Positions 2,843-25,342 of a stretch of 34,362 nt of DNA are shown here, in pieces (positions within the stretch are counted from its first letter, which is position 1; every line of letters begins with the position of its first letter). The DNA comes from Candidatus Hydrogenedentota bacterium (GTDB taxonomy: Bacteria; Hydrogenedentota; Hydrogenedentia; Hydrogenedentales; SLHB01), in contig JACRLJ010000020.1 of the NCBI GenBank assembly GCA_016215105.1, positions 7,786-42,147 of the forward strand, written 5' to 3'. Below the pieces are notes generated by a model. It was given only the letters and a program-made list of their open reading frames with translations, did not search any database and was not told where the DNA came from. The position numbers and the translations under genes were made by a program.

Positions 2843-2888
2843 CTTAGCTAGCGATAAGAGGGCCTTCAACAAACGGCCGCCGCCGGAG

Positions 2889-5902: not shown

Positions 5903-5970
5903 GTTCCTTTTCTCCTCCTGTTGAATTGCAGGTCTCGGTGAACCGCCTTGAGCGCGTTCCTCCGCCTGTG

Positions 5971-9309: not shown

Positions 9310-9318
9310 CGTGGCGGG

Positions 9319-9325
9319 CCTCCTT
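9319..9325 (-). promoter_or_regulatory. Strong ribosome binding site fixing a TTG start
   Basis: On the minus strand this reads AAGGAGG, a full match to the anti-Shine-Dalgarno core, and lies 9 bases before TTG at 9309. No in-frame ATG lies at a suitable distance, and the TTG opens directly into a signal peptide, so this site decides the start of the GH2 gene. Confidence 0.75.
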
Positions 9326-9430
9326 ACTGGTTCGTATACCTCGTGTGACCTCGTCTGCGGTTAAAGATACATCTTCTCGTAAGAACGAAATACGGTGTTT
9401 GGAGCAACGAATTCCCTTTCGACCCGCGCT

Positions 9431-12400
9431 CTAAAAGCGGCACACGATCTGTTGATGTCCTTTAGGTTCTTTGAGCGCCACGATCGCATCGCGCAAAGAA
9501 CTCTCGACGCCATTGACGGTTATCTTCGTGGGCGGCTTCGCGCCTGGATGGCGTAGGACCACGCGCAGTTCCGTGGACGGATTTCCTTGCGGCGGATCGA
9601 TGTCGATCACAATTGCGCCGTCTTCGGCGCGAGTGCATAGCGCCATCGTGCCTGCATAGGTGGGGGCGTCCTCAACGACAATCGACTGTCCCGGCGCGAA
9701 CCAACGGCGGGGGCAGCCGCGCAGAAGCCAGATCACCCCCGGGTCCTGGTCGTCGATGACCATGCGCCGGATCATGTCGAGCAGCCGGCCGTTTCCCGAG
9801 GCGTTTGGCTGGAACGGCGAGTAGTTCGCATCGCTGACATGAATGCGCTCGACGGTTTGGTAACAGTCTTGCGAGAGACCATAGGCCAGATTCGAGTAGA
9901 AGATGAGCAGACCCTTTTCGACTTCGCCCCGCGCTAACAGGTTCTGAAAGTAGCCGCGCTCCGAGCAGTTGACGTACCAGAACGGGTTTCGCCGTCCCAA
10001 TTCCACGGGCTCGTCCATGCGATTAGTCAAGCCAATCATCGTGCCCCACGTCTGTTGGAGATAGCTGAACATGGCGCCGAACCGCGGGTCGGTCCGCGCG
10101 TCGAGCAAGCCGGTCGCGAACATGCAGGCCGGCCCATCCGCCCACCAAAGCCCGCCATGCTCGCCTTCGTAGGTGGGAACGAGATTCGGCACGAAATCCA
10201 GATTCGTGGCGGGGTCTTTGTACTCGGCCCGGTGTATCGCTGCGAGCAGGCATTCACGGTATTCATCGGCCTCCTGCTGTAGACGCGCGGCGTGGGGAAG
10301 TTCCGCGGACTGGAACGCAGCGGCCATTTCCGCCATCCCCTTCCAAGTGAAGACATCCGAGAAGAACACGTAATGCCATCCTTCCCAATCGTGGACGCGG
10401 CCTTTTGGCATGAGGCCGTAGTACGGAACTCGTTCGCCCGCGTTGGTGAAGCGCCGCGTCCGCGCGCGCTCCCCCTGAATCCAATCCCAGGCGGCGAGGA
10501 TGCAGTCCTTGTTCTGCTTCAGCCAGTCCCCGTCACGCGAGTACCGGTACTTGGCCGCCATGGCCCAGAGTACGGACCCCGTTTCACAGGTCCACCGCAA
10601 CAGAAAGTTGCCGGTATAGCAGCCGTAGGCGGACTTCGTTTCCCCCTCCGGTTTGCGGCCCGGCTCGGCGTATTGGCCGATGCCGCTCTGGCGTTCCGTG
10701 AAGAATCGAAGCGTTGGTTCGAGTTCGCGGTGATATCCGAGCGCGCACATCGGAACGATCACGTGGGCGCACTCCCAGGGCCACACGCCTTCCCAAACCG
10801 GCGACTGAAAGGGTTCGTGCCACGGCCGGTTCGGATTCTTTCGCAGGTTGCCCAAGCACGAGAGAATCAAGCTCCGGTAAACATCGTTCAAACGCGGTTC
10901 CGGCGTGGTCAGCTTCATGCCGGCCTCAAGACCTTTGTCCCAATACTTCTCCGCGCGAGCCAGCGCGCCGTCAAACGTAGTCTGGCGCGTCGAGCCGGTT
11001 TCGTCGGACGGGAAGCGCTCCGGCGTAGCCACAACCACCAGATCGACTGTAGCTGTTTCGTTGGGCGCCAGTTCGAAATCGAACCTAAGCACATTTCGCA
11101 GCGCTTCGGGCAGGAGCGGATCCGTCGTTCCTGTCGAGAACTCCGGGACGAACATGGCCTTCACATCCGGTTTCGTGCGAATTGTCATCAGGGGGTGACC
11201 GTCAAGGAGTACGGCATCCTTTTCCACCGTGATGGGAAGAACAGGCTCTAGCCATCGCGATGCGGACCCGAGAAAGGGAGCGTAGTTTGTGTTCTGGGTA
11301 TCGTGCAGCCGGCCCATGAGGACGAAGAGTGGCGTCTTCCGCGCCTGCGCGGTCGTGTTACGCACCGCCATCCTCACCACAACGTACTGCGGTTCCTTAC
11401 CCGTGACGGTTTCTTCGTCTCGCGGCAGAATCGTGAAGGCGGTCTGGCCGATTTCGCATGAGTCCATCGTCCACCGGCTTTCTACGATGGGCTGATACCC
11501 CTGATGGAGTTTGCGCGTGACGGTGTACATGTCGGGAAGTTGAAAGGGATCGCCACAGGCAAACCCGAGGCCATACGCCTCATTAGCTCGTCCTAGCGCA
11601 ATCGACAGATCCGGGTGGACATAGACGACATCCGAGTAGTAGCGCGGCTCAATGGGAACACGCTGCGTCATCGGCGCGGCCATCCCTGCAAGCTCGTCCC
11701 ATGTCGCTTCGTGACGCTGTTCGGCCACGCCATCGAGTGTAGGCGCGGCAAGAAACCGTTCCCGCGCGCTTTCGTACGCGGGTTGCGCCTTCTCTCGGGA
11801 CTGCTGGTTCCGCGATGCCGCCTTCTCATCTTCGCGCGCGGCCTGCCGCACAAGCCCAAAGCCCGGCATCTCAATTGTGGTCGAGAGCGTGAGGTCGTCA
11901 ATGGCCGCGTCCGCCTCGTGGCCGTCGGGTACGCCCATCCAGCGCGTTGTGCAGGGGAGCGACCCCACGTGGAATACCGTTGCCTTGTCCGGCATCCGGG
12001 CCGTCGTGTGGATGCGGTGGCGAAGCCTGCCGTCGATGTAAAGCGCGCGGCACTTGGCGGCCTGGTCCCAGCACACGGTCAGTTGATGCCATTCCCCCGC
12101 GCGCCAGTCGACCGGCGCCGCGAGACCCATCAAGGCGCCGTCGCCCCCAAAGTACACCACGCCAAGACCGTCCTTTCCCAGGAAGCCGAGCACGGTTCTC
12201 TCGTTTGCGCCCGGGTTGGCGATTCCCCAGAAGAACCGATCACCAAACGAGTGGACGCTATCCCAGTTCGGGCGCACCCACATGCTCAGCGTGCCGCAGG
12301 CGGGGTCATAGTGTCCCGTAGTGGGATACGTGAGTACGGCGCCCTTCACAAACTCCGCCGCCAACGCGGAATGGCCGGCGACGAAGCGTACCAGCTCGTT

Positions 12401-12526
12401 CGTGACGGGTTCTATGTCACCCGCCGCCGTCAAGCCTGCGTCAAAGGAGAGTTGAAATTGTGAGGCGCCACCCTGGTTTGCGTCCGAGGCGGCCAGTCCG
12501 GCGAGCACGATGGCAACAAGCGGCAT
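9431..12526 (-). CDS. LamG-domain six-hairpin glycosidase-like protein, probably secreted
   Basis: With the ATG at 12526 the product has 1031 residues. It starts with the hydrophobic stretch MPLVAIVLAGLAAS, a short signal-like sequence. A concanavalin/LamG-like beta-sandwich follows at about 20-220 (LSMWVRPNWDS, GEWHQLTVCWD, LYIDGRL, AAIDDLTL), typical of carbohydrate-recognition modules. The C-terminal half (about 530-900) has the helical, Trp- and Glu-rich character of (alpha/alpha)6 glycosidases, e.g. VWEGVWPWECAH and SVLWAMAAKYRY. I cannot assign a GH family or the catalytic acids. An open frame reaches ATG at 12607, but that start lacks a ribosome binding site and would sit on the putative -10 box; the 12526 ATG has AGGA 8 bases upstream. 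It lies 121 bases upstream of the GH2 gene on the same strand, so co-transcription is plausible. Confidence 0.72.
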   Translation of the reverse strand: MPLVAIVLAGLAASDANQGGASQFQLSFDAGLTAAGDIEPVTNELVRFVAGHSALAAEFVKGAVLTYPTTGHYDPACGTLSMWVRPNWDSVHSFGDRFFWGIANPGANERTVLGFLGKDGLGVVYFGGDGALMGLAAPVDWRAGEWHQLTVCWDQAAKCRALYIDGRLRHRIHTTARMPDKATVFHVGSLPCTTRWMGVPDGHEADAAIDDLTLSTTIEMPGFGLVRQAAREDEKAASRNQQSREKAQPAYESARERFLAAPTLDGVAEQRHEATWDELAGMAAPMTQRVPIEPRYYSDVVYVHPDLSIALGRANEAYGLGFACGDPFQLPDMYTVTRKLHQGYQPIVESRWTMDSCEIGQTAFTILPRDEETVTGKEPQYVVVRMAVRNTTAQARKTPLFVLMGRLHDTQNTNYAPFLGSASRWLEPVLPITVEKDAVLLDGHPLMTIRTKPDVKAMFVPEFSTGTTDPLLPEALRNVLRFDFELAPNETATVDLVVVATPERFPSDETGSTRQTTFDGALARAEKYWDKGLEAGMKLTTPEPRLNDVYRSLILSCLGNLRKNPNRPWHEPFQSPVWEGVWPWECAHVIVPMCALGYHRELEPTLRFFTERQSGIGQYAEPGRKPEGETKSAYGCYTGNFLLRWTCETGSVLWAMAAKYRYSRDGDWLKQNKDCILAAWDWIQGERARTRRFTNAGERVPYYGLMPKGRVHDWEGWHYVFFSDVFTWKGMAEMAAAFQSAELPHAARLQQEADEYRECLLAAIHRAEYKDPATNLDFVPNLVPTYEGEHGGLWWADGPACMFATGLLDARTDPRFGAMFSYLQQTWGTMIGLTNRMDEPVELGRRNPFWYVNCSERGYFQNLLARGEVEKGLLIFYSNLAYGLSQDCYQTVERIHVSDANYSPFQPNASGNGRLLDMIRRMVIDDQDPGVIWLLRGCPRRWFAPGQSIVVEDAPTYAGTMALCTRAEDGAIVIDIDPPQGNPSTELRVVLRHPGAKPPTKITVNGVESSLRDAIVALKEPKGHQQIVCRF

Positions 12527-12607
12527 CTTCGTAGTCCTGTTTGTCCTGCCAGCCCTGCGCGCAAACCAGCACGTTCGAGCCGGCAAAACGGCGTCCGTAA
12601 GAGACAT

Positions 12608-12835: not shown

Positions 12836-13807
12836 ATGGACGTGCAGTGCGAACTATGCCCTAAAGGGTGTGTCATTTCTCCAGGGCAGAGTGGGGACTG
12901 CCGCATTCGTGTCAATCTCAATGGAAAACTGGTTGCGGTGACGTACGGCCATCCGTGCGCGGTTCACGTCGATCCGGTAGAAAAGAAACCGCTATTTCAT
13001 TTCCTGCCTGGCTCCAAAGCCTTTTCCATTGCTACCGTTGGCTGCAATCTACACTGCAAATTCTGTCAGAACTGGGAGATTTCACAGGAAAACCCGGAGA
13101 ACATGGCGGCTCAATCGCTGCCGCCGCAGTCCATTCCGGAAGCCGCGCGCCGATCGGGGTGCCGTTCCGTGGCGTACACCTACAGCGAACCTCTCGCGTA
13201 CTACGAATACACGCTGGATAGTTGCATTAAAAGTCGCGAAGCAGGTCTCAAGAACTTGCTGATTACGGCAGGATATATCAACCAACCTCCGTTGGAGAGG
13301 CTATGCGCCTACCTGGACGCGGCCAACATCGATGTGAAGGCGTATTCCGAGACGTTTTACAGGGATATCTGCGGCGCGACACTAAAGCCGGTACTGGACG
13401 GACTTGTACTTACCAAGTCAAAGGGTGTGTTGGTGGAAGTTACGAATCTCGTGGTGCCGACCCTGAACGACAGTGACGACGACCTGCGAAACCTATGTCG
13501 TTGGATTGTCGAGAATCTCGGTCGAGAAACACCGCTACACTTCTCCAGGTTCTTTCCTCTATACCGTATGGATCACCTTCCGCCGACTCCCGCGGCCACG
13601 CTGGCTCGGGCGCGCGAGATTGCAGGAAGCGAAGGGCTGTTTCACGTGTATATCGGAAACATAGAAACCGCCGGCGCGGAAGATACCTACTGTAGCTCCT
13701 GCGGGAGGAAGCTCGTTGAACGGCGCCAGTACACCATTCTGAAGGATGACGTGGCGGACGGCGCTTGTCCGTATTGTAGCACGAAGGTCCACGGCCTATG
13801 GAACTGA
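12836..13807 (+). CDS. amrS: AmmeMemoRadiSam system radical SAM enzyme
   Basis: The 323-residue protein has the N-terminal Cys motif CELCPKGCVISPGQSGDC of AmrS/pyruvate-formate-lyase-activase-like proteins, the radical SAM cluster motif CNLHCKFC (Cys70, Cys74, Cys77), and a C-terminal Cys4 knuckle (CSSCGRKL ... CPYC). Length and architecture match the AmmeMemoRadiSam radical SAM family, which is defined by co-occurrence with Memo and AMMECR1 proteins; both domains are encoded by the second gene downstream. The family's reaction is not established. It has no signal peptide and must act in the cytoplasm, where SAM and reductant are available. Start choice: AGGGG 8 bases before ATG; the frame is closed upstream by TAG. 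Its last 10 bases overlap the next small gene. It opens a run of six same-strand genes. Confidence 0.9.
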   Translation: MDVQCELCPKGCVISPGQSGDCRIRVNLNGKLVAVTYGHPCAVHVDPVEKKPLFHFLPGSKAFSIATVGCNLHCKFCQNWEISQENPENMAAQSLPPQSIPEAARRSGCRSVAYTYSEPLAYYEYTLDSCIKSREAGLKNLLITAGYINQPPLERLCAYLDAANIDVKAYSETFYRDICGATLKPVLDGLVLTKSKGVLVEVTNLVVPTLNDSDDDLRNLCRWIVENLGRETPLHFSRFFPLYRMDHLPPTPAATLARAREIAGSEGLFHVYIGNIETAGAEDTYCSSCGRKLVERRQYTILKDDVADGACPYCSTKVHGLWN

Positions 13808-13992
13808 GACGACGGACATTTCTATCATCGCTCGGAAGGTCTGCTCTAGTCTTCTTGGCCGGCGCGTTGGCCCCGGCCATACGGATTGCGCCAAGGCGAT
13901 TTGTCGAGGCCGTGCGCGGGCGCTGGTATCCTGGCCCCGTGGTTGCAGGCGCTAGCCGACGAGTAAGGGAACAGGGCAAATGGGCGGGGTAG
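13798..13992 (+). CDS. Tat-signal miniprotein in the AmmeMemoRadiSam operon
   Basis: This 64-residue frame begins with MELRRRTFLSSLGRSALVFL: a twin-arginine motif (R5-R6-T-F-L) followed by a hydrophobic stretch, a typical Tat leader. The predicted mature part is only about 30 residues, basic, with WYPGPVV near position 43 and ending in GKWAG. The start overlaps the amrS stop by 10 bp and the stop lies 4 bases before the next gene, so the frame fills the space exactly, as expected of a real, coupled gene. No catalytic motif is visible. It could be a small exported subunit or a retained Tat anchor for the Memo-AMMECR1 lipoprotein or the flavoprotein. Function unknown; that it is a gene rests on the leader and the packing. 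Confidence 0.6.
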   Translation: MELRRRTFLSSLGRSALVFLAGALAPAIRIAPRRFVEAVRGRWYPGPVVAGASRRVREQGKWAG

Positions 13993-13996
13993 TCCA

Positions 13997-15604
13997 ATGA
14001 TGCGCAAAACAATCCTGCGGTGTCGTCCTGCTTCGGTATTCGTCAGTATTGTGGCGATCTCCGTAGCGCTGACGGGTTGTTCTCCCGAAGCGCCGAAAAC
14101 CGGCGGAGAGTCAGAGGCGGCAGTCGCGCCAACTCCCGCGCCAACTCCCGCGGCAACGCCGCCCGCCAAGACGATGGTGTCGCCATTGGCTGGGACGTGG
14201 TACAGCGCAGACCGTCAAACCCTGCACAATGAGATCGCAGGTTACTTCGACAACGTAGCGGCAAACGAACTGCCAAATGTCCAGGCGTTGATTCTGCCGC
14301 ACGCTGGATACCGGTATTCAGCCGCAACGGCGGCCTATGGCGTCAAACTGGTTATGGGGCGCAAATTCAGCCGCGTCGTTATCCTCGGCCCGAGTCATCG
14401 TGTAAACCTAACTAACGCGGCGAGTTTGCCCGCTTACGACCGCCTCGAGACGCCGTTGGGGGCCATATCCGTGGACAAGGCCTTCGTCACCGCGCTGAAA
14501 TCCAACCCGATGTTCAAGACAGTGTCATCGGTCGATGAAGTGGAACACAGCGTACAGATACAAGCGCCCCTGCTGCAGCAGGCGCTTGGCGAGTTTGCAG
14601 TAGTACCCATTGTGGTTGGCAGTCTGAATCGAGAAACGGTGTCGGCAATGGCCAAGACGCTGCTCGCGCTTGTGGACGAACAGACACTGGTTGTGGCGAG
14701 CAGCGACTTCACGCACTACGGTCCGAATTACGACTATGCGCCATTCAAAGATAATGTCGCGGAGAACTTGAAGCAACTGGATATGGCGGCGTTTGACACT
14801 ATCCGGAAGAAAAGCGTTGACGCTTTCGATGACCATATTCAAAAGACGGGCGACACCATCTGTGGCCGCTATCCAATAGGAATCCTTCTGACCATGCTGC
14901 CGAAGGACTCCGAACCGCACTTGATGCGCTATGAGACCTCCGGTCAGAACACGGGGGATTTCACCAACTCCGTGAGTTACCTGAGTATCGCCTTTACCGG
15001 CGCATGGCCCGCGAGCCCGCGCGCTGAGTCTTCTTCAGCCGGTCCGGCCCTCAGTCAGGAAGACAAGAGCCGCCTGTTGAAGCTGGCCCGAAAGACCCTT
15101 GAGCGTTACCTGATTGACCACAACGCGCCGGATCTCGCATCGCTGGGCATCGACATTACGCCCGCGATGAACTCCGTGATGGGCGGATTCGTGACGCTCA
15201 AAGAAGATGGAGAGCTGCGAGGCTGCATCGGAGAGATCGAACCCCGGCGTCCGTTGTCCCGTGTCGTAATGGACCATGCCATCGACGCGGCCATCCGCGA
15301 TCCGCGTTTTCCTCCGGTGACGGTGGACGACCTTGCGCGGCTCCAAATCGAAATCTCCGCGCTTACGCCTCCGCGCAGTGTGGCCTCGTATCGGGAGATC
15401 GTAATCGGAAAACACGGCGTGACGCTGGAGAAAGGGTTTAACCGCGCCGTCTTTCTGCCGCAAGTGGCGCCGGAGCAGGGTTGGAACATCGAGCAGACGC
15501 TAGGCCACTTAGCCGTCAAAGCGGGACTGTCTGAGGAAGCATGGAAAGAAGGGGCGTCTTTCCAGGTGTTCGAGGCCGTGGTCTTCGGCGAAGACAGCAC
15601 ATGA
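13997..15604 (+). CDS. amrB/amrA: Memo-AMMECR1 fusion lipoprotein (AmmeMemoRadiSam proteins B and A)
   Basis: The 535-residue product starts with a signal ending in the lipobox LTGC (Cys28) and a Pro/Ala/Thr-rich linker to about 58, so it is predicted to be an exported, lipid-anchored protein. A Memo domain spans about 60-345: PHAGYRYS (His102), GPSH, VEHSVQIQ, SSDFTHYG and TICGR. The His, His and Cys positions that bind iron or copper in human MEMO1 appear conserved. An AMMECR1 domain spans about 355-533 with its hallmark LRGCIG at 407-412 (Cys410). Memo and AMMECR1 are usually discussed as cytoplasmic proteins; here both are on one polypeptide with an export signal while the radical SAM partner is cytoplasmic. 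The stop overlaps the next ATG (ATGA). Domains are certain, function is not. Confidence 0.9.
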   Translation: MMRKTILRCRPASVFVSIVAISVALTGCSPEAPKTGGESEAAVAPTPAPTPAATPPAKTMVSPLAGTWYSADRQTLHNEIAGYFDNVAANELPNVQALILPHAGYRYSAATAAYGVKLVMGRKFSRVVILGPSHRVNLTNAASLPAYDRLETPLGAISVDKAFVTALKSNPMFKTVSSVDEVEHSVQIQAPLLQQALGEFAVVPIVVGSLNRETVSAMAKTLLALVDEQTLVVASSDFTHYGPNYDYAPFKDNVAENLKQLDMAAFDTIRKKSVDAFDDHIQKTGDTICGRYPIGILLTMLPKDSEPHLMRYETSGQNTGDFTNSVSYLSIAFTGAWPASPRAESSSAGPALSQEDKSRLLKLARKTLERYLIDHNAPDLASLGIDITPAMNSVMGGFVTLKEDGELRGCIGEIEPRRPLSRVVMDHAIDAAIRDPRFPPVTVDDLARLQIEISALTPPRSVASYREIVIGKHGVTLEKGFNRAVFLPQVAPEQGWNIEQTLGHLAVKAGLSEEAWKEGASFQVFEAVVFGEDST

Positions 15605-18600
15605 GCTCTACTCCGGGCGCGACAGCCGATACGAACCCGGAATCGATGGCGCCCATCAAGCTAAGCGTCCTATCGCAAACCGCCACGATGTTGGCGCTGG
15701 GTTTCTTTCCTATTGTGGCGCAGACACTCCTGTTTCGCGTCTTCCTTGGGGCGTTCGAATCCGGTGAACTCGCTGTCGGATGCTTCTTTGGCTCGTGGTT
15801 GCTCTGGGTTGCTCTGGGCGCCGCGTTGGCCCGCATTGAGACGAGGTGGCGCGCGCGGCTCATGGGCTCATTTGCGTGGCTTCCATTGCTGTACATCCCC
15901 GCCTACCTCCTTCAGGATCGGTTGATCGTCTGCGCCCGCATTATCGCGGGCGTACAGAGTTACGAGGTGTTGCCACTAGGTTCGATGGTGGGCCTGTCCC
16001 TGATCGTAAACGCTCCGGTATGCTTCCTTACTGGGTATCTCTTCGCGTTGGCGTGTAGCTGGCTCGCGACGGGAGGCGGCCTGCCCGTAGCGAGGGCGTA
16101 CGTACTCGAGACACTTGGAGGCTTTCTAGGCGGGGTTAGCGTTACGGTTCTACTGGCCAACGCCGTTCCGGCGCAAGTCGTGTTCCTCGTCGCTGCTAGT
16201 ACTGCCGCCATTTCCGTAGCCCTGCACCGCCCACGGTCGTGGCGCTACGTGGCGCCGGCCGCAATTCTGATTGTGTTGACGGCCTCAGGCGCCGGGATAC
16301 GATGGGCGGAAGGGGAACGGCGGGCGACATGGAAGCGGCTGCTGCCGTCGGAGGCGTATGTTGGCGGTTTCGCTACGGCTCAAGGCGAGTACCTGTACGG
16401 CGAGCGTGAAGGGCAGTTCCTGGCCGTTACGTGCGGCGGCGTACGTGAGTCGTTGCCGGATACCGACCACGTTTCGACGGTTGCGGCGGTGAATCTCGCC
16501 CAGAATCCATCGTCGTCGCGGGTTCTGGTCATAGGGCCCGGGTCGCTTGCGCTGTGTCTACGACTTACGGCGTTTCCCAATATCCATCGCACCGTATGGA
16601 TCGATCCCGACCCGGAACTGGCCGGTCGACTGCTGTCGTTGTTGCCTATCCGCTATTCTAGGGACGCGGAGAAACTGGAAACGCCGAAGCACGATGCGGC
16701 GGCGTTTCTGCGGGAGAATCCAGGCGCGTTCGATCTCGTCGTCCTCAATTTGCCGGAGCCAACGAGTCTCGTAGTGAATCGTTACGCGACGCGGGAGTTC
16801 CTCTTCGATGTCAAGTCCTCTCTTGCGGATGGGGGGGTAGTTTCAGCACGAGTAACCGGTGGCGCCAACTACGTTGGCAGCGAACTGGCGTTTCTGGGGG
16901 CGTCCCTCCGGAAAACACTCGGATCCGTCTACCACAACGTCGTAATCAAACCAGGAGAAGAGACGTGGCTGATCGCATCCGATGCCTCAGGTCTTACTGA
17001 GGCGCCCGCCGTACTGCGTGACCGCTTCGCAAGCATAGCAGGGGTGGCGGCGCTTTACCCGCCGGAAGGCTTACTATCTCAGTATGTTCCTGATCGAGCG
17101 GCCTACCAAGCGCGTATATACGGCGATGTCGAGTCCACTGTTCCAGAGCGGCTCCTGCTAAACGTGGCCAGCCGTCCAAAAGCGCTGCTGTACGGCTTGA
17201 TGCTTGCGCGCCGGCGTGGCGGCGAACAAGCCGCTCCATTTCAAACGCCGCTGCTCTTGGAAAGCGGCTTCTGGATTGCTGTCATTGCGTTGGCGGTATT
17301 GGTGGCTGTGCGGACCGTGTATGTATTGAAATCTTCGCGGGTCTCGCGTGGCGCGCCACCGTGGCCATTTGACGCCGGATTCCTTGTCTTCTCCACCGGC
17401 TTGGCGGGCATGTCTCTCAGCGTCATCCTGATGTTGCTCTACCAGTCCGCGTTTGGCACATTGTATTTGCACGTGGGGCTCATCACGTCACTGTTTATGC
17501 TCGGAAGCTTTGCGGGGAGTTTCATAGGTGAGCGCCTATTGGCTTCACGGAATTCGGAACCATCTGCCCTGCTTCCTACTTGCGTGTTCCTGCATTTGGC
17601 GGCTATCGGCGCCGTCGGGATGTTGACTACGGCCAGTCCCAAGGCTGCGTTTGGGGTCTTGTTCGTTATCGCCGGCGCATTTACCGGGATCTACTTTCCA
17701 ATTGCTGCGAAGCGCTTGGCGCTGGCCGACCGGAAGCCTACACCGGCGGGATCCTTCCTCGAGGCGCTCGACACCTTGGGAGGAGCGGCCGGAGCGGCCT
17801 GCGCGGGCCTGGTATTGGCGCCCGTGCTAGGGACACGAGACACGCTGGTCTTACTTGCGATCGTCGTTGTAGCGAATACAGCGGAGCTGTTGACGCGGCG
17901 CCGAATTCCAGCCTCCAGTCGAAGCGCCGACTTCTTCAAGAGAACCAGCCGGGTTGCCGGGTATGCCATGTTCGGCGCCGGGGTGATTTTCTTGGCCGCA
18001 TCGCATATAGCCGCTCATGCCGTTGCGGTGGCCGAAGGCCCGCGCTTGGCCGCCGCTGCTCGAGCCTTGGCGGGTCGAAGCGAACCGGAGCCGACAGAGG
18101 CCCGCTTAGCCGACGGAAAGGAGGTGCTCTACTACCAAGTTCCGTCGTCACCGGAGGACGAGGGGGGGTATGTGTTTTCCACAAGCCATTTCAGTAGCAA
18201 GATTCAAGGGTATGGTGGTCCGATAGAATTGGTGGTCTACGTGAATCAAGACGGCATTCTTCGTGATTTTGAGTTCTTCCGGTCTTCCGAGACGCCGGCA
18301 TACGTGGCGCGGCTTCGTCAGTGGAGGGACGGACTGAATGGCGCCAACTTGTTTGAGCCGAGTCCGTTCGCGCATGTGGACGCTGTGAGCGGGGCAACGC
18401 TCACTTCGGCGGCCATACTGAAGACGCTCGAAGAGTCCGGACGCCGGTTTGCGGCGGAGATCCTCCGTCGCGAGGTGGCTCCGGTGGTACCGGCGTTCGC
18501 CCGCTCCACGCGTGACTGGGGATTCATTTCGCTCGCGGGCTTGGCCGTCTTGGCTACGTTGCTGCGCTTTCGTCCCAGCAGACCACTCCGGCGCGTGGTC

Positions 18601-19206
18601 CTGGCGCTCACCGTCATAGTCCTAGGATGGCAGTTGAACATTCAGTACTCGATGCAGCATACGATCGCGCTTCTTGACCTAAACTGGCCAGCCGCGGCGA
18701 TTACGGCGCCGTTTGCTCTGGTCGTCCTGATCCCGCTTTTCGCCGCCTTCTTCGGTAACGTGTACTGCGGCAGTCTCTGTCCCTTCGGGGCGTTACAGGA
18801 GCTGGTGGGTGATATCTGTCCGGTAAAGTGGGGCCGCAATCCGGACAACGTTGTGTGGCGTTACGGGCGTTTCGTGAAGTATGTTCTGCTCTTCCTGGTC
18901 ATTGCCCTGTACGCGCGTTACCGCGACGCATCGGTGCTATCCGCCGACCCGCTCATCACCCTGTTCGGCCCCGCGCGCAGCGATTCCGCGCTTGTCCTAT
19001 TCGGGGGCGTACTGGTGGCATGTGTCTTCTACCGCCGGTTTTGGTGCCGTAATCTCTGTCCTGCGGGCGCTTTTCTAGCGCTGGTTGGCGGCCTAAATCT
19101 GCTGAAGCGGTTTCTACCGCACGTGCGTCCTGTAAAGTGTGACATGGGTGTCCGGAAAGCGGCCGAGCTTGACTGTCTTCGATGCGACAGGTGCCGTAAT
19201 GCTTAG
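15601..19206 (+). CDS. Membrane fusion: spermidine-synthase-like + FMN-binding + NosR/NapH-like polyferredoxin
   Basis: Starting at the ATG that overlaps the previous stop, the product has 1201 residues. Order: a first set of membrane helices (about 20-240); a spermidine-synthase-like Rossmann domain (about 300-470; VLVIGPGS, then LNLPEPTSLVVNR); a second helix set (about 550-805); an FMN-binding domain (about 850-960) with the flavinylation motif DAVSGAT, predicted to carry FMN on Thr933; and a NosR/NapH-like membrane domain with CX3CP motifs at Cys1056/1060 and Cys1149/1153 plus Cys1180, 1192, 1195 and 1198 for Fe-S binding. In the synthase domain the usual GGGDG is GPGS and the usual catalytic Asp position is Asn, so polyamine synthesis is doubtful. 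Membrane electron transfer to an external flavin is the likely role. The flavin transferase ApbE is two genes downstream. Confidence 0.87.
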   Translation: MSSTPGATADTNPESMAPIKLSVLSQTATMLALGFFPIVAQTLLFRVFLGAFESGELAVGCFFGSWLLWVALGAALARIETRWRARLMGSFAWLPLLYIPAYLLQDRLIVCARIIAGVQSYEVLPLGSMVGLSLIVNAPVCFLTGYLFALACSWLATGGGLPVARAYVLETLGGFLGGVSVTVLLANAVPAQVVFLVAASTAAISVALHRPRSWRYVAPAAILIVLTASGAGIRWAEGERRATWKRLLPSEAYVGGFATAQGEYLYGEREGQFLAVTCGGVRESLPDTDHVSTVAAVNLAQNPSSSRVLVIGPGSLALCLRLTAFPNIHRTVWIDPDPELAGRLLSLLPIRYSRDAEKLETPKHDAAAFLRENPGAFDLVVLNLPEPTSLVVNRYATREFLFDVKSSLADGGVVSARVTGGANYVGSELAFLGASLRKTLGSVYHNVVIKPGEETWLIASDASGLTEAPAVLRDRFASIAGVAALYPPEGLLSQYVPDRAAYQARIYGDVESTVPERLLLNVASRPKALLYGLMLARRRGGEQAAPFQTPLLLESGFWIAVIALAVLVAVRTVYVLKSSRVSRGAPPWPFDAGFLVFSTGLAGMSLSVILMLLYQSAFGTLYLHVGLITSLFMLGSFAGSFIGERLLASRNSEPSALLPTCVFLHLAAIGAVGMLTTASPKAAFGVLFVIAGAFTGIYFPIAAKRLALADRKPTPAGSFLEALDTLGGAAGAACAGLVLAPVLGTRDTLVLLAIVVVANTAELLTRRRIPASSRSADFFKRTSRVAGYAMFGAGVIFLAASHIAAHAVAVAEGPRLAAAARALAGRSEPEPTEARLADGKEVLYYQVPSSPEDEGGYVFSTSHFSSKIQGYGGPIELVVYVNQDGILRDFEFFRSSETPAYVARLRQWRDGLNGANLFEPSPFAHVDAVSGATLTSAAILKTLEESGRRFAAEILRREVAPVVPAFARSTRDWGFISLAGLAVLATLLRFRPSRPLRRVVLALTVIVLGWQLNIQYSMQHTIALLDLNWPAAAITAPFALVVLIPLFAAFFGNVYCGSLCPFGALQELVGDICPVKWGRNPDNVVWRYGRFVKYVLLFLVIALYARYRDASVLSADPLITLFGPARSDSALVLFGGVLVACVFYRRFWCRNLCPAGAFLALVGGLNLLKRFLPHVRPVKCDMGVRKAAELDCLRCDRCRNA

Positions 19207-19495
19207 GTCCGAGAAGATATTTCTTTGCGTTGTACTGGCGTTTGCGTTGGCGTTCGCCGGGATAACGCTACAAGCGGTTCCAGGCTCCGAGAGCAATGGC
19301 GCGACGGCCGTGCGGACCGGGGCAGGTGGACAATCCCGCGATGTGGACATGGTCAAGTTGGAACGGCTCATGCGTGAACAATCCTTGTCGGACCATGAGG
19401 CCCAGTTCTACCGCCGCACGGAGTCGCGTGAAGCGCCTCCAAATCCTCGCGCGCCCGTGAACCCTCGCGAGACTACCGGCGCGGACGCACAGTAG
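19199..19495 (+). CDS. Small membrane-anchored protein between the flavoprotein and ApbE
   Basis: This 98-residue product starts MLRSEKIFLCVVLAFALAFA: a short basic n-region and one hydrophobic helix at about 7-27, a signal anchor or signal peptide. The remainder is hydrophilic, with a central acidic/basic helix-like segment containing LSDHEAQFYRR and a Pro/Arg-rich tail. The frame is open back to 19139, but the ATG at 19199 overlaps the preceding stop by 8 bp and its own stop is directly followed by the apbE ATG, so this start fits the operon. I do not recognise a family. The position suggests an extracytoplasmic accessory subunit of the flavin/Fe-S complex. Confidence 0.68.
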   Translation: MLRSEKIFLCVVLAFALAFAGITLQAVPGSESNGATAVRTGAGGQSRDVDMVKLERLMREQSLSDHEAQFYRRTESREAPPNPRAPVNPRETTGADAQ

Positions 19496-20581
19496 ATGCG
19501 CGGGCGGGCGAGCGTTTATGGGATTTGCCTGTCGGTGGTATTGACGGCCGCGTATTCAACGGTTGGTCTGTGCGGCGTCTCGGCCATCTTGGCCGGCTGT
19601 GACTTCTCCGCCTCGCGCGCGCCGGACGGCGTGGTCACATTCGCTGGCGCGACGATGGGCACGACCTATTCAGTCAAGATCGCCGCGGAAAGCATGACCG
19701 TCGGCGCCCGGCAGCGCATCGAGCATGCGATCTCGGAAGTATTGCAGGGAATCGACCGCGAAATGTCCACGTGGCGGAGCGACTCGGAATTATCGCAGTT
19801 CAACGCCTCAGAGAACGCAGCGGCTTTCAATGTTTCCCGGAATCTCATCGAAGTGCTCTTGTGCGCGCAACGAATAAGCGAACAGTCCGGTGGCGCGTTT
19901 GACGTGACGGTCGGTCCGCTCGTCAATGCTTGGGGCTTTGGTCCCGCCGGGGGAAGGGAACGTGTCCCGGAGGACGGCGAGATTGCCCGTCTCAAGCCCT
20001 CGGTGGGATACCAGAAGTTGGTCATCGATTCTGGCGCAGGAGCGCTACGCAAGACCGCGCAAGGCATGTACGTCGACGTTGCCGCAATCGCCCCTGGATA
20101 CGCTTGCGATAAACTCGGGGTGGCGATCGAGACTCTTGGCTACCCGAATTATCTTATCGAGCTTGGCGGTGAGGTGCGCGCGCGTGGAGCCAAGCTCGAC
20201 GGTAAAGGCTGGACCATTGGTGTCGAGAGGCCGGATGCGCCGGGCCGTGCCCTCTATACGCCGGTGACGTTGGATGGTATGTCGCTTTCCACATCCGGCG
20301 ATTACCGGGAGTATTTTGAAAAGAGCGGTGTGCGCTACTCACACACGGTCGACCCAAGAACAGGACGCCCGATTACGCACCATCTGGCGTCGGTCACCGT
20401 CATTAATCGCGACTGCATGTGGGCCGACGCGTATGCCACCGCAATCGAGGTATTGGGACCCGAGGAGGGGTACCAACTGGCCGTCCGGGAGAAGCTGCCA
20501 GCCCTCCTCCTCGTGCGGGAAGCGCCTGGCGTTTTCCGTGAGAAGCAAACACCGGCGTACACGGCGATGTTCGGTCGCTAG
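19496..20581 (+). CDS. apbE: FAD:protein FMN transferase ApbE (lipoprotein)
   Basis: The 361-residue product has a signal ending in the lipobox LAGC (Cys35), as is usual for ApbE. Family motifs are clear: ATMGTTYSVKI near 52, the STWRSDSELSQFN segment, GGAFDVTVGPLVNAWGFG, YVDVAAIAPGYACD, ELGGEVRARG, HTVDPRTGRPI and ADAYATAIEVLG near the C terminus. ApbE uses FAD to attach FMN through a phosphoester to Thr in the Dxx(S/T)GAT motif of exported flavoproteins and needs Mg. A matching motif, DAVSGAT, occurs in the membrane fusion protein encoded two genes upstream, the obvious substrate. The ATG follows the previous stop without a gap, so it is translated from the same message. It closes the six-gene run. 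Confidence 0.93.
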   Translation: MRGRASVYGICLSVVLTAAYSTVGLCGVSAILAGCDFSASRAPDGVVTFAGATMGTTYSVKIAAESMTVGARQRIEHAISEVLQGIDREMSTWRSDSELSQFNASENAAAFNVSRNLIEVLLCAQRISEQSGGAFDVTVGPLVNAWGFGPAGGRERVPEDGEIARLKPSVGYQKLVIDSGAGALRKTAQGMYVDVAAIAPGYACDKLGVAIETLGYPNYLIELGGEVRARGAKLDGKGWTIGVERPDAPGRALYTPVTLDGMSLSTSGDYREYFEKSGVRYSHTVDPRTGRPITHHLASVTVINRDCMWADAYATAIEVLGPEEGYQLAVREKLPALLLVREAPGVFREKQTPAYTAMFGR

Positions 20582-20784
20582 CTAGTGTGGCGGTGAGTCA
20601 ATTGCCGGAAATGACGATGGCGTTTTTTCGGTGGCGCGGGGTGTATGATGGTTCGACGCCACCATCTTACGTCATCCTTGGTGGGAGCGAGTGATTGTGA
20701 TTGCGTGAGCAAATGGGAAACGCGGCTTGCGGGCCGTTAGTTCAGAGCTACGGGTTGATACGGACATGGGGAGGAGCAACAGTC

Positions 20785-21615
20785 ATGGGAAAGATCGGCA
20801 TTGGCGTGAATTTGGAGTTTGTACGGCATGAGGACAAACCCTTCGAGTGGGGAGTGCAGAAGGCGGCGGAATTGGGCTATGAATACGTCGAACCTATGGT
20901 CCATTGGGGCCGCGAACTTCTTAGTGAGGCGGGCTACTTCCACAGTGTCTCCATGCTCGACGACCCCTACCGGGTAAAGCGGGCCTGCGCGAACGCGGGC
21001 GTCAAAGTGTCCGGTCTGTCCACGCACACCCCGCTCTGCAAGCCGGAAATAAGCCTCGAGTATCTCAAGCAGGCGATCCGGTTTGCTGCGGAATGCGGCG
21101 CCCCGGTCGTCAATACCGACGAAGGGCCGAAGCCGGCGTGGACTACCGTCGAGGAGGACCACGTGCTCATGCGGTACGTGCTGCACGAAGCCGCGGCCGT
21201 GGCGGAACCGCGCGGCATTCTCATTGGCATCGAGCCGCACCAGCAATACAGCAAGACCCCTGCCGGCCTCGACCGCATTCACGGGTTGGTGGCTTCCGAG
21301 GCGATTGGGATCAACTTCGACACGGGCAACAGTTATCTTTCCGGCGAGGATCCCATCGTTTGGCTCAAGCGCGTGTTGGATCGTCTAGTCCACTTGCACG
21401 CCAAGGACATATCCATACAGCAATCCGCCGCCGAACGCGGCAAAGTGACGGGTACCCCGGTGGGGTGTGCGTGCGGCGACGGCGTGATAAACTGGGCTGA
21501 AGTCATCAAGGTCTGCAAGACCGCGCCGCGGGACATTGTGCTATCGGTGGAATGCGGCACCGTCGAGCAGGCGGGCCGGAGTATCGGCCATCTTAAGCAA
21601 CTGCTCAAGAGCTGA
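20785..21615 (+). CDS. Sugar phosphate isomerase/epimerase-like TIM-barrel protein
   Basis: The 276-residue product belongs to the AP-endonuclease-2/xylose-isomerase-like TIM-barrel superfamily. Visible are GIGVNLEF at the start, KAAELGYEYVEPM, the metal-ligand strand IGIEPH near 150, GINFDTGNSYL, LHAKDI and LSVECGT near the end. Members bind a divalent metal and isomerise or epimerise sugars or related polyols; the exact substrate cannot be read from sequence. Start choice: the frame is open to a TTG at 20701, but AGGAG 8 bases before the ATG at 20785 and the first barrel strand mark this start. No signal peptide. It leads a tight operon, with 11 bases to the ThuA-PmoA gene. A TATGAT at 20644-20649 could be a -10 box, but no good -35 accompanies it. 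Confidence 0.82.
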   Translation: MGKIGIGVNLEFVRHEDKPFEWGVQKAAELGYEYVEPMVHWGRELLSEAGYFHSVSMLDDPYRVKRACANAGVKVSGLSTHTPLCKPEISLEYLKQAIRFAAECGAPVVNTDEGPKPAWTTVEEDHVLMRYVLHEAAAVAEPRGILIGIEPHQQYSKTPAGLDRIHGLVASEAIGINFDTGNSYLSGEDPIVWLKRVLDRLVHLHAKDISIQQSAAERGKVTGTPVGCACGDGVINWAEVIKVCKTAPRDIVLSVECGTVEQAGRSIGHLKQLLKS

Positions 21616-21626
21616 GGACACGTAGA

Positions 21627-23270
21627 ATGCCTAAGTACGTCGCCGGTTTGCTGTGGGCGGGTGTGATTGTGCTCTTGGCGCGCCCCGCGGGAGGTGAGCC
21701 TTTGCACGCGCTGATTCTTACTGGCCAGAACAACCATGCTTGGCAGGAAACGACGCCCGTCTTGCGCCAGATACTCGAGCAAAGCGGCCGCTTTACCGTG
21801 GAGACCCTCGAGCGCCCAGAGACGATGACCGCCGCGTTTGTGTCCAAGTTCGATGTGATTGTTAGCAACTGGAACTCGTGGGGGACAGACGCAAAGGTCA
21901 AAGACTGGCCCGAGGCCGCGCGCGCGGCGTTTATCGAGTTCGTCAAGCAGGGAAAAGGCTACGTTTCCATCCATGCAGGGTCGTCATCGTTCTACGATTG
22001 GGGCGCCTACCAGGAGATGGTGATCGCCGCGTGGAAGCTAGGCGAAACGGGCCACGGAAGCCCGCACAATTTCCGCGTGACACCCACCGCGGAGACTCAC
22101 CCAATCACCCAGGATCTGCCGCCATTCACAACATTCGACGAGCTTTGGCACAGCGTGCCGTTAGCGCAAGGCGCTAAGGTCCTGGCCACGGCGTACTCCG
22201 CAAAGGAGTCCGGCGGAACGGGCCGTGACGAGCCGGTGGTAATGACGAAGGAGTTCGGTCAAGGCCGCAGCGTCAACATCCTTCTTGGTCACGACGCGCG
22301 CGCGATGAGCGCTCCATCGTTCGGAATCCTCGTGTCGCGCTCCGCGGAATGGGCGGCGACCGGCAAAGTCACGCTTGCTGCGCGCACGATTGACTGGTCT
22401 CGGGACGAGAACCACCTCGCGCTCAAGCTAAACGGTGAGACCGTGTGGCAGTTGAACTTCGGAAAGGACGCCGCAAAGCCATACTTCCATCCGCTTGCGT
22501 TGGCGGGTGGTCCGATTCTGAGTTGGAATGCTCCACCGGATCACGCGTGGCATCACGGCCTGTGGTTTTCGTGGAAGTTCATTAATGGGGTCAATTTCTG
22601 GGAGGAAGACCCCAAAACGGGGCGAGCCGCGGGACTAACTGTCTGGGACCCGCCCGACATCACGACCAAGCCTGACGGAGGCGCCGAGATTCGATTCCAC
22701 GTACGGTACGAATTGCCGAGCGGCGAAAAACTGCTCACGGAACTGCGCACGCTCACCGTATCCCCGCCAGATAAGAGCGGTGGCTACCACATTGACTGGA
22801 CGTCGGCCTTCGAGGCGACCGCGCCGGAGGCGTTACTTGACCGGACTCCTCTAACGGGCGAACCCGAGGGACAATCTTGGGGAGGATACGCTGGGCTATC
22901 CATGCGGTTCAGCGCGATGAGCAATCCTGAAGTCCGTTCGGATGCAGCCGTGGTGGCGCTGGACAAGGAACGCGCCAGTGTGGACGCCGAGGCGCTTGAT
23001 TATAGCGGCGTATGGGACGGGTGTGCGGCCGGTGTCGCACTACTGCAATTCCCAGGCAACCCCTTAGCCCCAACGCCGTGGTACGTGATTGCACAGGCGA
23101 AGGGTCCCTTCTACTACTTCAGCCCCGCCGTCCTTTATCGCTCGCCACGTACGCTGAAGCAAGGAGAGAAATTGACGTTACGCTATCGGATTGTGGCGCA
23201 CGCTGATGCCTGGGACAGTTCGAAGCTGCGCGGGGCGCTGAAAGAACTTGGCGGAGTGGCGAAACCGTAA
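21627..23270 (+). CDS. Exported ThuA-PmoA (DUF6807) fusion protein
   Basis: The 547-residue protein begins with a signal peptide (about 1-23, LLWAGVIVLLARPAGG). A ThuA-like domain (glutamine-amidotransferase fold) spans about 25-245: ALILTGQNNHAWQETTPVL, VIVSNWNSWG, GYVSIHAGSSSF, TTFDELWHSVPL, ILLGHDARAM. The second half (about 260-545) matches the PmoA/DUF6807 family (YFHPLALAGGPILSWNAPPD, HAWHHGLWFSWKFINGVNFW). ThuA proteins are linked to trehalose/keto-sugar metabolism; the name PmoA in databases does not make this a methane monooxygenase subunit. Between a sugar isomerase and a Tat Gfo/Idh oxidoreductase in one operon, a periplasmic role in carbohydrate processing is the best inference. 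Stop is 24 bases before the next start. Confidence 0.85.
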   Translation: MPKYVAGLLWAGVIVLLARPAGGEPLHALILTGQNNHAWQETTPVLRQILEQSGRFTVETLERPETMTAAFVSKFDVIVSNWNSWGTDAKVKDWPEAARAAFIEFVKQGKGYVSIHAGSSSFYDWGAYQEMVIAAWKLGETGHGSPHNFRVTPTAETHPITQDLPPFTTFDELWHSVPLAQGAKVLATAYSAKESGGTGRDEPVVMTKEFGQGRSVNILLGHDARAMSAPSFGILVSRSAEWAATGKVTLAARTIDWSRDENHLALKLNGETVWQLNFGKDAAKPYFHPLALAGGPILSWNAPPDHAWHHGLWFSWKFINGVNFWEEDPKTGRAAGLTVWDPPDITTKPDGGAEIRFHVRYELPSGEKLLTELRTLTVSPPDKSGGYHIDWTSAFEATAPEALLDRTPLTGEPEGQSWGGYAGLSMRFSAMSNPEVRSDAAVVALDKERASVDAEALDYSGVWDGCAAGVALLQFPGNPLAPTPWYVIAQAKGPFYYFSPAVLYRSPRTLKQGEKLTLRYRIVAHADAWDSSKLRGALKELGGVAKP

Positions 23271-23294
23271 GAGCACATGCTCGGGGAGAGCACA

Positions 23295-24650
23295 ATGAGA
23301 ATGGTAAACACGACACGAAGAGAATTCCTCAAACGGACTGCCGCGGCCATCACGGCGCCCGTGATTCTTCGGTCCACGGCATTGGGCAAGAACGCGCCGA
23401 GCAACCGTGTCAACCTGGCCCTGATTGGCGCCGGCGGCCGCGGCAATCAATTGCTCAACGACTTTTCGCACGTTCAGGATGCACAGGTCATCGCGGTATG
23501 CGATTGTTTCAAAGAGCGCCGCGAAACTACGCGAGACAAGCTTAACAAGACGTACAACGGCGAGGTAGTCACGGCCTATGCGGATTTCCGCGAGCTGCTT
23601 GCTCTGAAGGATATCGATGGCGTCATTGTGGCCACTCCGGACCACTGGCATGTGCCGATTGCGATCGCCGCGGCGCGCGCCGGCAAGGATACGTACGTGG
23701 AGAAGCCACTCGGCGTGAGCATGGAGTGGGCCTGGAAGCTGCGGAAAGCGGCGCGCCGCGCGAAGACGGTCTTCCAGTACGGAACACAGCAGCGGTCCTC
23801 GCCACTATTCCGGAAGGCATGCGAGTTGGTTCGCAACGGGTACATTGGCGAGGTGAGGCGTATCGAGGCGTGGTGCCCCGACATTTCCAGCCAATACGCC
23901 GCGTTTCACGTTCCGCAGTATGGCTCCACCGACACCGCCCCGGTCCCGGAGGGCTTCGATTACGATCGATGGCTTGGGCCGGCTCAGCAGAAACCCTATA
24001 CGGTGGATCGCTGCACGAATTTCGGCGCGTATCATATCTACGACTACGCGCTGGGCTTTATCGCGGGCTGGGGCGCGCATCCCCTGGACATCGCCCAGTG
24101 GGGTTTGAATGTGGATCACACCAGTCCCGTTCGATACGAGGGCACGGGTTCGATTCCGGCCAAAGGGCTGTATGACACGATTGACTCGTGGGATATGGAA
24201 TGCACGTACGCCACCGGAGTGAAGATGAGATTCATGGGACACCGGGTAGCGCAGCCAGTGGTGTCGGCCTACCGCAAGTGGAACGATCACGGCACGACCT
24301 TCCACGGCGGCAACGGCTGGATTAGCGTGGATCGCGGCGGCATCTATGCCAGCGATCCCAAACTGCTGGAGATCACCCTCAAGGCGGACGATGTCCATCT
24401 CCGGCGAGAGGATAGTCACGCTCACGATTTCGTGATGTGCATGAAGTCGCGGCAATTACCGCTCAGTCACCTCGAAGCGGCCATTCGGTCGGACACCATC
24501 AGCCACCTTTGCGATATCGCCATCCGGCTGCGCAAGCCTATCGAGTGGGATCCGGAGAAGGAGCGCATCGTGGGAGACAAGGAAGCGGCAAAGATGCTGG
24601 CGCGCCCGCTCCGGAAACCGTGGAATCTCAACAAGCGAATGCTAACCTGA
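23295..24650 (+). CDS. Tat-exported Gfo/Idh/MocA family oxidoreductase
   Basis: The 451-residue protein starts with NTTRREFLKRTAAAITAPVI, a twin-arginine signal with the TRREFLK motif. An N-terminal Rossmann fold follows (NLALIGAGGRGNQLL near 45, VIVATPDHWH, then YVEKPLG with the catalytic Lys of the family), and a C-terminal alpha/beta substrate domain with GYIGEVRRIEAW and GAHPLDIAQWG. The family oxidises or reduces sugars and inositols with tightly bound NAD(P). Tat export is expected for a protein folded with its nucleotide cofactor before transport. Start choice: an ATG at 23277 is in frame, but GGAG 6 bases before the ATG at 23295 and the compact Tat n-region favour the latter. Last gene of the operon; it converges on the truncated radical SAM gene 14 bases away. 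Confidence 0.9.
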   Translation: MRMVNTTRREFLKRTAAAITAPVILRSTALGKNAPSNRVNLALIGAGGRGNQLLNDFSHVQDAQVIAVCDCFKERRETTRDKLNKTYNGEVVTAYADFRELLALKDIDGVIVATPDHWHVPIAIAAARAGKDTYVEKPLGVSMEWAWKLRKAARRAKTVFQYGTQQRSSPLFRKACELVRNGYIGEVRRIEAWCPDISSQYAAFHVPQYGSTDTAPVPEGFDYDRWLGPAQQKPYTVDRCTNFGAYHIYDYALGFIAGWGAHPLDIAQWGLNVDHTSPVRYEGTGSIPAKGLYDTIDSWDMECTYATGVKMRFMGHRVAQPVVSAYRKWNDHGTTFHGGNGWISVDRGGIYASDPKLLEITLKADDVHLRREDSHAHDFVMCMKSRQLPLSHLEAAIRSDTISHLCDIAIRLRKPIEWDPEKERIVGDKEAAKMLARPLRKPWNLNKRMLT

Positions 24651-24664
24651 CCGCCACGGGCGCA

Positions 24665-25342
24665 TCAGGCGCAACCTTCCATTCGGTCGGCGATGTGGAA
24701 CCGGTGTGCGGCGCGGGCGGCGCGCTCCCGGATTGCCTTAAGGTAGGCGGCGCGCACCGGGGGCGAGAAGAGAACTCGACGATAGCGCTCGAGTAATTCG
24801 GGGAATTCGCGAAGGAGCAGCGCTTTTACCGACTCCCAGACCTTCGGACGCGGGTTGAGGGCATCGACCCAAATCACGTCAATGTCCAAGGCGGCCGCGC
24901 GTTCAAACAGGTCATCCACGCACTTCTGGTCGTCGGAGAGAAACGGCAAGAGCGGCCCAAACATGATAGCAGTATCGAGGCCCGCGTCGCGCGCCGCCTG
25001 GATCACCTCAAACCGTTCATCCACACTGCTCGCCCCCGGTTCCCAGAGTTCTTGGAGGCGGGCATCGAGCGTGGTGACCGTTACGCCGATTCGGCCGGCG
25101 CGGTCCTCGAAGAGATCCAGGTCTCGCAAAACCAAGGCGCTCTTGGTAAGCACATTGACCTGAAATCCGTGTTCGAGCAATAGCCGCGCGCACTCCCGCG
25201 TCAGGCGGCGCTCCTGCTCGAGCGGCTGCCAGCCGTCGCACGCGCTGCTCATGAACACCTCGCCGGGGCGCGCCGTACGCAACTGCCGCTGCAACGCGTC
25301 TACCGCATTGATCTTGATGTCTACGAACTCACCCCAGGGCAA
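24665..25342 (-). pseudogene. SPL-type radical SAM protein lacking its Fe-S motif, probably a truncated remnant
   Basis: The readable frame from a TTG gives 225 residues that match the middle and C-terminal part of spore-photoproduct-lyase-like radical SAM proteins (PWGEFVDIKIN, SSACDGWQPLEQE, TKSALVLRDLDL, VTVTTLDARLQELWEPGAS, MFGPLLPFLSD). In complete relatives the segment before PWGEF carries the CX3CX2C cluster motif. Here the frame is closed by TAG at 25399-25397, and none of the three frames of this strand just upstream encodes CX3CX2C. Without it the enzyme could not bind the iron-sulfur cluster or cleave SAM. I therefore call it a 5'-truncated remnant; a missed distant start cannot restore the motif. 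No ribosome binding site was found at the TTG. Confidence 0.55.

Follow-up and report, generated by a model that had tools for sequence, protein, structure and literature searches.

The window analysed here is a stretch of 34,362 nucleotides from a contig (JACRLJ010000020.1) of a Candidatus Hydrogenedentota bacterium, and it contains an operon of six genes at positions 12836-20581, in which the three families of the AmmeMemoRadiSam trio (AmrS, a radical S-adenosylmethionine (SAM) enzyme, together with Memo and AMMECR1) adjoin a membrane protein with flavin mononucleotide (FMN)-binding and iron-sulfur (Fe-S) domains. The best explanation of this operon, one which on the evidence of the sequences we regard as probable, is an extracytoplasmic AmmeMemoRadiSam system. 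The exported variant is widespread and apparently undescribed. We know of no function for AmmeMemoRadiSam, two components of which, Memo and AMMECR1, have the human counterparts MEMO1 and AMMECR1, and to our knowledge no radical SAM enzyme acts outside the cytoplasm, such that an exported AmrS would, if true, be the first. A location of the trio outside the cytoplasm would narrow the possible substrates and electron donors of AmmeMemoRadiSam and would offer a genetic handle on the system in the form of its dependence on the twin-arginine translocation (Tat) pathway, its escort and its docking tail. If true, it would also overturn the assumption that radical SAM chemistry takes place only where cytosolic SAM and reductants are at hand, and a radical SAM enzyme acting outside would imply the export of SAM. 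The operon comprises the following genes.

12836..13807, plus strand: amrS, AmmeMemoRadiSam radical SAM enzyme, leaderless and assigned to the exported clade (TIGR04337, 377 bits, cut-off 220; tree; start-codon survey)
13798..13992, plus strand: Tat miniprotein of 64 amino acids with an RRRTFL Tat signal, a YPG motif and a C-terminal W-A-G (translation and conserved family)
13997..15604, plus strand: Memo-AMMECR1 fusion, predicted lipoprotein (family matches; leaders on relatives)
15601..19206, plus strand: membrane protein with 7 transmembrane (TM) helices, a spermidine-synthase-like domain, 8 TM helices, an FMN-binding domain and a NapH/NosR-like Fe-S membrane domain
19199..19495, plus strand: small protein, the C-terminal domain of the membrane protein encoded as a gene of its own
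19496..20581, plus strand: apbE, FAD (flavin adenine dinucleotide):protein FMN transferase, a local addition to the operon (PF02424, 292 bits)

The preliminary description of this DNA had read these as six tightly packed open reading frames (ORFs) on the plus strand, and the coordinates bear out each junction that it gave, namely a 10-bp overlap of amrS with the miniprotein gene, a 4-bp gap from there to Memo-AMMECR1, an ATGA at 15601 where the membrane protein gene begins, an 8-bp overlap of the latter with the small protein gene and no gap between this and apbE. The trio families are adjacent, Memo and AMMECR1 scoring 206 bits (TIGR04336, cut-off 26) and 166 bits (TIGR04335, cut-off 99) respectively, while the membrane protein matches the FMN_bind, Fer4_5 and Spermine_synth domains. 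Neither the miniprotein (none at E<=1) nor the small protein has a family match in Pfam or NCBIfam.

Probable export of AmrS and its partners

The following features within the first three genes bear on the location of the trio.

13043..13066, plus strand: CxxxCxxC radical SAM cluster motif of AmrS (C70, C74, C77), invariant in 150 AmrS rows, exported and cytosolic
13981..13989, plus strand: C-terminal Trp-x-Gly signature of the miniprotein, present in all matches to its hidden Markov model (TatMini-HMM) judged real
13997..14077, plus strand: predicted lipoprotein signal peptide (...ISVALTG^C; LTGC is residues 25-28)
14186..14989, plus strand: Memo domain with the MEMO1 iron ligands His, His and Cys (PF01875; alignment with 7kq8; invariant in 19 sequences)
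15077..15586, plus strand: AMMECR1 domain (PF01871)

The AmrS of the window begins 4 residues ahead of the first Cys motif, and in a start-codon survey operon-type AmrS generally begin 4-10 residues ahead of it. Among 151 distinct AmrS, for which the W-x-G ending was taken as the criterion for a miniprotein and Tat and leader calls were made by simple heuristic rules, 65 have no leader and are followed immediately by a miniprotein, 29 possess, by a strict rule, a Tat signal of their own, and none has both; hand inspection raises these counts to 69 with a miniprotein and 36 with an own signal, the latter including one N-terminal membrane anchor (L207). Own Tat signals are found on the AmrS of L173, L175, L176 and L203 as well as in many loci of the Desulfobacterota and of the phylum of the Fibrobacteria. 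The miniproteins match the Tat motif RR.F[LIVFMC] in 62 of 65 cases, usually followed by YPG and then by the W-x-G end. Within 80 named loci from other phyla, which were found by a profile of the Memo-AMMECR1 fusion, there are 57 Tat-like ORFs ending in W-x-G among 16,571 ORFs, and all 57 lie at the end of amrS, a figure that, like the matches to the hidden Markov model, is independent of the survey with the W-x-G criterion; no miniprotein was found with the stand-alone amrS genes surveyed.

In the AmrS tree the exported clade is split from the cytosolic AmrS (SH-aLRT, the Shimodaira-Hasegawa-like approximate likelihood ratio test, 95), and the leaderless group with miniproteins is nested within the group with own Tat signals, its first branch being formed by three Desulfobacterota AmrS with FMN-NapH upstream. 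Export labels change 4 times in all on this tree, as against 67 in shuffles; the own-signal L207 is placed on the cytosolic side, and L278, which lies at a contig edge and has no visible signal, on the exported side. Likewise, a held-out set of 69 AmrS, for which the clade was assigned from the core sequence alone, contains 33 members of the cytosolic clade, none with a miniprotein or a credible Tat signal, and 36 members of the exported clade, of which 18 have a miniprotein (one by eye), 8 a Tat signal of their own and 3 a membrane anchor at the N-terminus, with none of these visible in the other 7. The pattern typical of hitchhiker pairs, an untagged AmrS beside a Tat-tagged miniprotein and never both tagged, is thus repeated in the held-out set with some exceptions. 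An extra cysteine, C41, is conserved in most exported-clade AmrS and is not among the common residues of cytosolic AmrS. TatC is present in the genome of the window and in 62 of the 68 genomes of the phylum surveyed. Taken from these sequence patterns, the case for export of AmrS throughout a clade distinct from the cytosolic AmrS is strong, and export is the best-supported step of the mechanism that we propose below.

The adjacency of amrS and the miniprotein gene could, in principle, be interpreted differently. One possibility, which we consider unlikely, is that AmrS, being related to the glycyl-radical activases, stays in the cytosol and modifies the product of the next gene with its W-x-G end, such that Tat would export a redox peptide similar to a ribosomally synthesised and post-translationally modified peptide, to be finished outside by Memo-AMMECR1. 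The equivalog cut-offs of such activases are not reached by AmrS (47.5 of 232 bits for PFLA and 50.8 of 250 for YjjW). The sister AmrS lineages with their own Tat signal have no miniprotein, which therefore cannot be a universal substrate, and the presence of the miniprotein tracks the missing Tat signal on AmrS, so that modification would leave its loss with own-signal AmrS unexplained. Again, the miniprotein might be an independent, Tat-inserted membrane subunit of a redox complex with AmrS remaining cytosolic, for redox enzymes are known to have tiny Tat proteins as neighbours (small Tat proteins adjoin formate dehydrogenases) and the miniprotein does adjoin a redox membrane protein; but it accompanies leaderless AmrS also in loci whose membrane protein lacks NapH or FMN domains (L075, L091, L113, L120) and is missing where AmrS has its own Tat signal, and we regard such a role as quite improbable.

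Memo-AMMECR1 is by its leader a predicted lipoprotein and therefore exported. A leader is found by a crude rule in 68 of the 77 fusions with amrS in the locus, whereas Memo beside cytosolic AmrS has none (few cases, same rule). The metal ligands of human MEMO1 are H49, H81 and C244 (PMC11081632). The operon thus departs from the cytosolic form, which has no export signals and an AmrS with an N-terminal segment, in having a lipobox on Memo-AMMECR1 and a leaderless AmrS of the exported clade. Many Hydrogenedentota genomes also have an unfused pair of Memo and AMMECR1 genes with leaders of the general secretory (Sec) type and no amrS nearby (L057-L073).

A variant in the Desulfobacterota (L295-L297, L270) comprises FMN-NapH, a separate tail protein, a leaderless AmrS and membrane-anchored Memo and AMMECR1, its miniprotein ending in KEAQFYKRGDRWAG or ...RKGDRLAG. 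The idea that the miniprotein carries the N-terminal segment of AmrS was dropped: to the eye the sequences of L295-L297 (...KEAQFYKRGDRWAG) are suggestive, but the match is not significant (P of 0.12-0.35), and the remaining 65 miniproteins give no signal. A resemblance exists between a GxW at AmrS C-termini and a GxWxG at the end of the miniprotein (12836-13992 of the window).

The membrane protein and its tail

The membrane protein and the small protein contain the following elements.

16333..17190, plus strand: spermidine-synthase-like domain, catalytic Asp replaced (mostly by Asn), predicted outside the cytoplasm
18208..18432, plus strand: FMN-binding domain with the flavinylation motif DAVSGATLT (PF04205; GAT invariant in 24 sequences)
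18577..19203, plus strand: NapH/NosR-like domain of 5 TM helices with two CxxxCP motifs and a C-terminal CxxCxxC cluster motif (PF12801; alignment)
19385..19417, plus strand: tail LSDHEAQFYRR, like the N-terminal segment of other AmrS, EAxFYxKLE (position-specific scoring matrix test, 47 tails)

Two thirds of the membrane protein, counted from its N-terminus, are taken up by the spermidine-synthase-like domain and the membrane halves on either side of it. The AlphaFold2 (AF2) model of residues 10-815 is confident (predicted local distance difference test score, pLDDT, 90.6), and the modelled fold of the soluble domain matches the spermidine synthases 3anx and 1uir. The nucleoside-site Asp is invariant and the catalytic Asp is replaced, in 29 of 42 sequences by Asn; the score against the spermidine synthase equivalog is 35.6 bits for a cut-off of 260. 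The C-terminal part likewise stays below the NCBIfam equivalog cut-offs of NosR (52 of 1000 bits) and NapH (22.6 of 234). A covalently bound FMN is predicted from the DxxSGATxT motif (DAVSGATLT) and the presence of ApbE in the genome, the two marks of ApbE-dependent flavoproteins. By positive-inside counts over 42 sequences, Lys and Arg make up 16.5% of the loops predicted inside and 8.0% of those predicted outside, and the spermidine-synthase-like domain, the FMN domain and the tail come out outside in this prediction.

The small protein has one TM helix followed by a tail predicted to lie outside. It was rejected as a separate subunit, since roughly half of the loci with this domain encode it as part of the membrane protein. 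The tail consensus, LSxxEAxFYxKLE, is similar to the N-terminal segment found in other AmrS; scored with a profile of AmrS N-termini, 51% of 47 tails exceed the 99th percentile both of shuffled tails and of unrelated C-termini, and the tail of the window itself scores below that percentile. Since the operon-type AmrS is without this N-terminal segment, the tail may complete AmrS in trans.

Conservation and spread of the gene set

A full-length Memo-AMMECR1 fusion occurs in about 21 of 68 Hydrogenedentota genomes, and on contigs long enough to show it, amrS is followed in the phylum by the genes of the miniprotein, Memo-AMMECR1, the membrane protein and the small protein, in this order. The 80 fusion loci come from Planctomycetota, Lentisphaerae, Kiritimatiellae, Verrucomicrobia, Spirochaetales, Fibrobacteria, "delta" and Bacteriovoracaceae metagenome-assembled genomes (MAGs), and most of those with amrS in view keep the gene order of the window; most relatives in general are from MAGs. 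The core thus recurs across several phyla and is therefore not lineage-specific. Recurrence of this kind was what the preliminary description had asked for as support, and the connection it drew from AmmeMemoRadiSam to an exported flavin/Fe-S chain is real. The set of six that it had proposed needs to be trimmed: the core order recurs, but apbE is rarely adjacent, and what is a small protein here often forms the C-terminal end of the membrane protein. Indeed, apbE, which adjoins the operon only in the window, L107 and L110, was rejected as a core member; ApbE is encoded somewhere in 66 of the 68 genomes of the phylum. Spread by viruses was also considered and set aside, a scan of viral contigs having found no relative.

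Composition varies mainly in the redox part. In some Lentisphaerae loci the spermidine-synthase-like membrane part is present but NapH is lacking, or FMN resides on a separate protein (L075, L091, L113, L120, L122, L128, L134), and the minimal version, which comes from the phylum to which the Fibrobacteria MAG belongs (L298-L301), consists of a Tat-tagged AmrS, a secreted Memo-AMMECR1 and a spermidine-synthase-like membrane protein with neither FMN nor Fe-S domains. Such loci bear on the earlier suggestion that the trio matures the redox chain, that is, that AmrS or Memo-AMMECR1 modifies or repairs an FMN/Fe-S membrane protein serving another role. The tight coupling and conserved order of the genes would suit this explanation. 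However, the exported trio occurs beside a membrane protein without FMN and Fe-S domains, and Tat-tagged AmrS is also found without the membrane protein. Because the trio appears to be exported and exists without these domains, and because the tail resembles the missing AmrS segment, we judge the reverse, in which the chain serves an exported AmrS, to be likelier, and maturation of the chain to be decidedly unlikely. As a separate observation, genomes G186-G332, from the phylum of L094, have up to nine TIGR04337 matches apiece.

Proposed mechanism, precedents and genomic setting

We envisage that AmrS acquires both its fold and its Fe-S cluster in the cytoplasm, where it would be bound by the miniprotein; the latter would act as a Tat escort, and the signal-less AmrS would cross the membrane as a passenger, i.e. 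by hitchhiker export. Outside, AmrS would partner the lipid-anchored Memo-AMMECR1 and dock on the membrane protein, probably via the outside tail at the C-terminus of the latter. Electrons could enter at the Fe-S centres that the NapH/NosR-like part has on the inner side and reach AmrS by way of the outer covalent FMN, while the spermidine-synthase-like outer domain could handle SAM or its nucleoside product and the membrane halves flanking it may pass SAM outward. The sequences themselves show the separate clade, the mutual exclusion of own Tat signal and miniprotein, the leaders on Memo-AMMECR1 and the arrangement of domains; co-export and docking, the latter backed by the motif statistics, and the supply of electrons and SAM by the membrane protein are inferred. 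For the broader proposal, that a whole radical SAM clade operates outside the cytoplasm, delivered in folded form by Tat via its own signal or a dedicated escort of 60-70 amino acids and obtaining electrons and SAM from a membrane protein with a SAM-binding fold, covalent FMN and Fe-S centres, we see the chances as evenly poised.

Several points weigh against this picture. We know of no experiment that shows a radical SAM enzyme or SAM outside the cytoplasm. The miniproteins show no significant resemblance to the N-terminal segment of AmrS and so offer no clue to how they would bind it, and the AF2 model of AmrS is poor at residues 1-52, for which reason it was set aside in the search for a docking groove. 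The topology is assigned by the positive-inside rule only, with the side of the tail taken from the Lys and Arg around the last helix. The 7 of 36 held-out exported-clade AmrS that have neither leader nor miniprotein in view are mostly Pontiella-like, Pontiella itself likewise shows neither, and Pontiella-like leaderless AmrS of this clade lack a Tat signal, a miniprotein and an adjacent Memo in view in L191, L228, L343, L349, L362, L363, L365 and L372. Finally, NapH or FMN is missing in L075, L091, L113, L120 and L298-L301, and the electron source therefore cannot be the same everywhere.

Known systems resemble parts of the proposed one. With cytosolic AmmeMemoRadiSam (TIGR04335/04336/04337) it shares the three adjacent families, the metal ligands and the radical SAM motif, but here Memo and AMMECR1 are fused and, by prediction, lipid-anchored, a dedicated membrane protein is present, and AmrS lacks the usual N-terminal segment, forms a separate clade and is tied to a Tat signal carried either by itself or by the protein encoded next to it. 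The ApbE-flavinylated extracytosolic electron-transfer systems (PMC8238504, PMC11334425) likewise have an FMN-binding domain with a flavinylation motif, a NapH/NosR-like Fe-S membrane domain and ApbE in the genome; the client here would instead be the radical SAM trio, and the main texts of those two papers mention neither AMMECR1, Memo, radical SAM nor spermidine synthase. Hitchhiker export by Tat is established for nickel-iron hydrogenases and formate dehydrogenases (PMC10924467), in which an untagged cofactor enzyme is similarly encoded beside a Tat-tagged partner; in our case, by contrast, the tagged partner has some 64 amino acids and no cofactor domain, and the passenger would be a radical SAM enzyme. 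The membrane protein resembles spermidine synthase and its fusion with the major facilitator superfamily (MFS-spermidine synthase, NF037959) in fold, in the nucleoside-site residues of the SAM-type pocket and in the TM halves, but differs in the replaced catalytic Asp, in scores far under the curated cut-offs and in its fusion to FMN and Fe-S domains. Our literature search, with subscription papers outside its scope and a prior mention hence possible, found no wording for a periplasmic, exported or extracytoplasmic radical SAM enzyme; AmmeMemoRadiSam appears only in passing in the literature searched, and the exported variant is described nowhere there.

As to the setting of the operon, sigma-70-type promoters are no more numerous at it than in shuffles. 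The flanks of the window (1-12607 and 20701-29312) contain mostly carbohydrate genes unrelated to the operon, encoding an FGGY kinase, PKD/dockerin, GH2, sugar isomerase-like, ThuA/DUF6807, Gfo/Idh/MocA and GH106 proteins.

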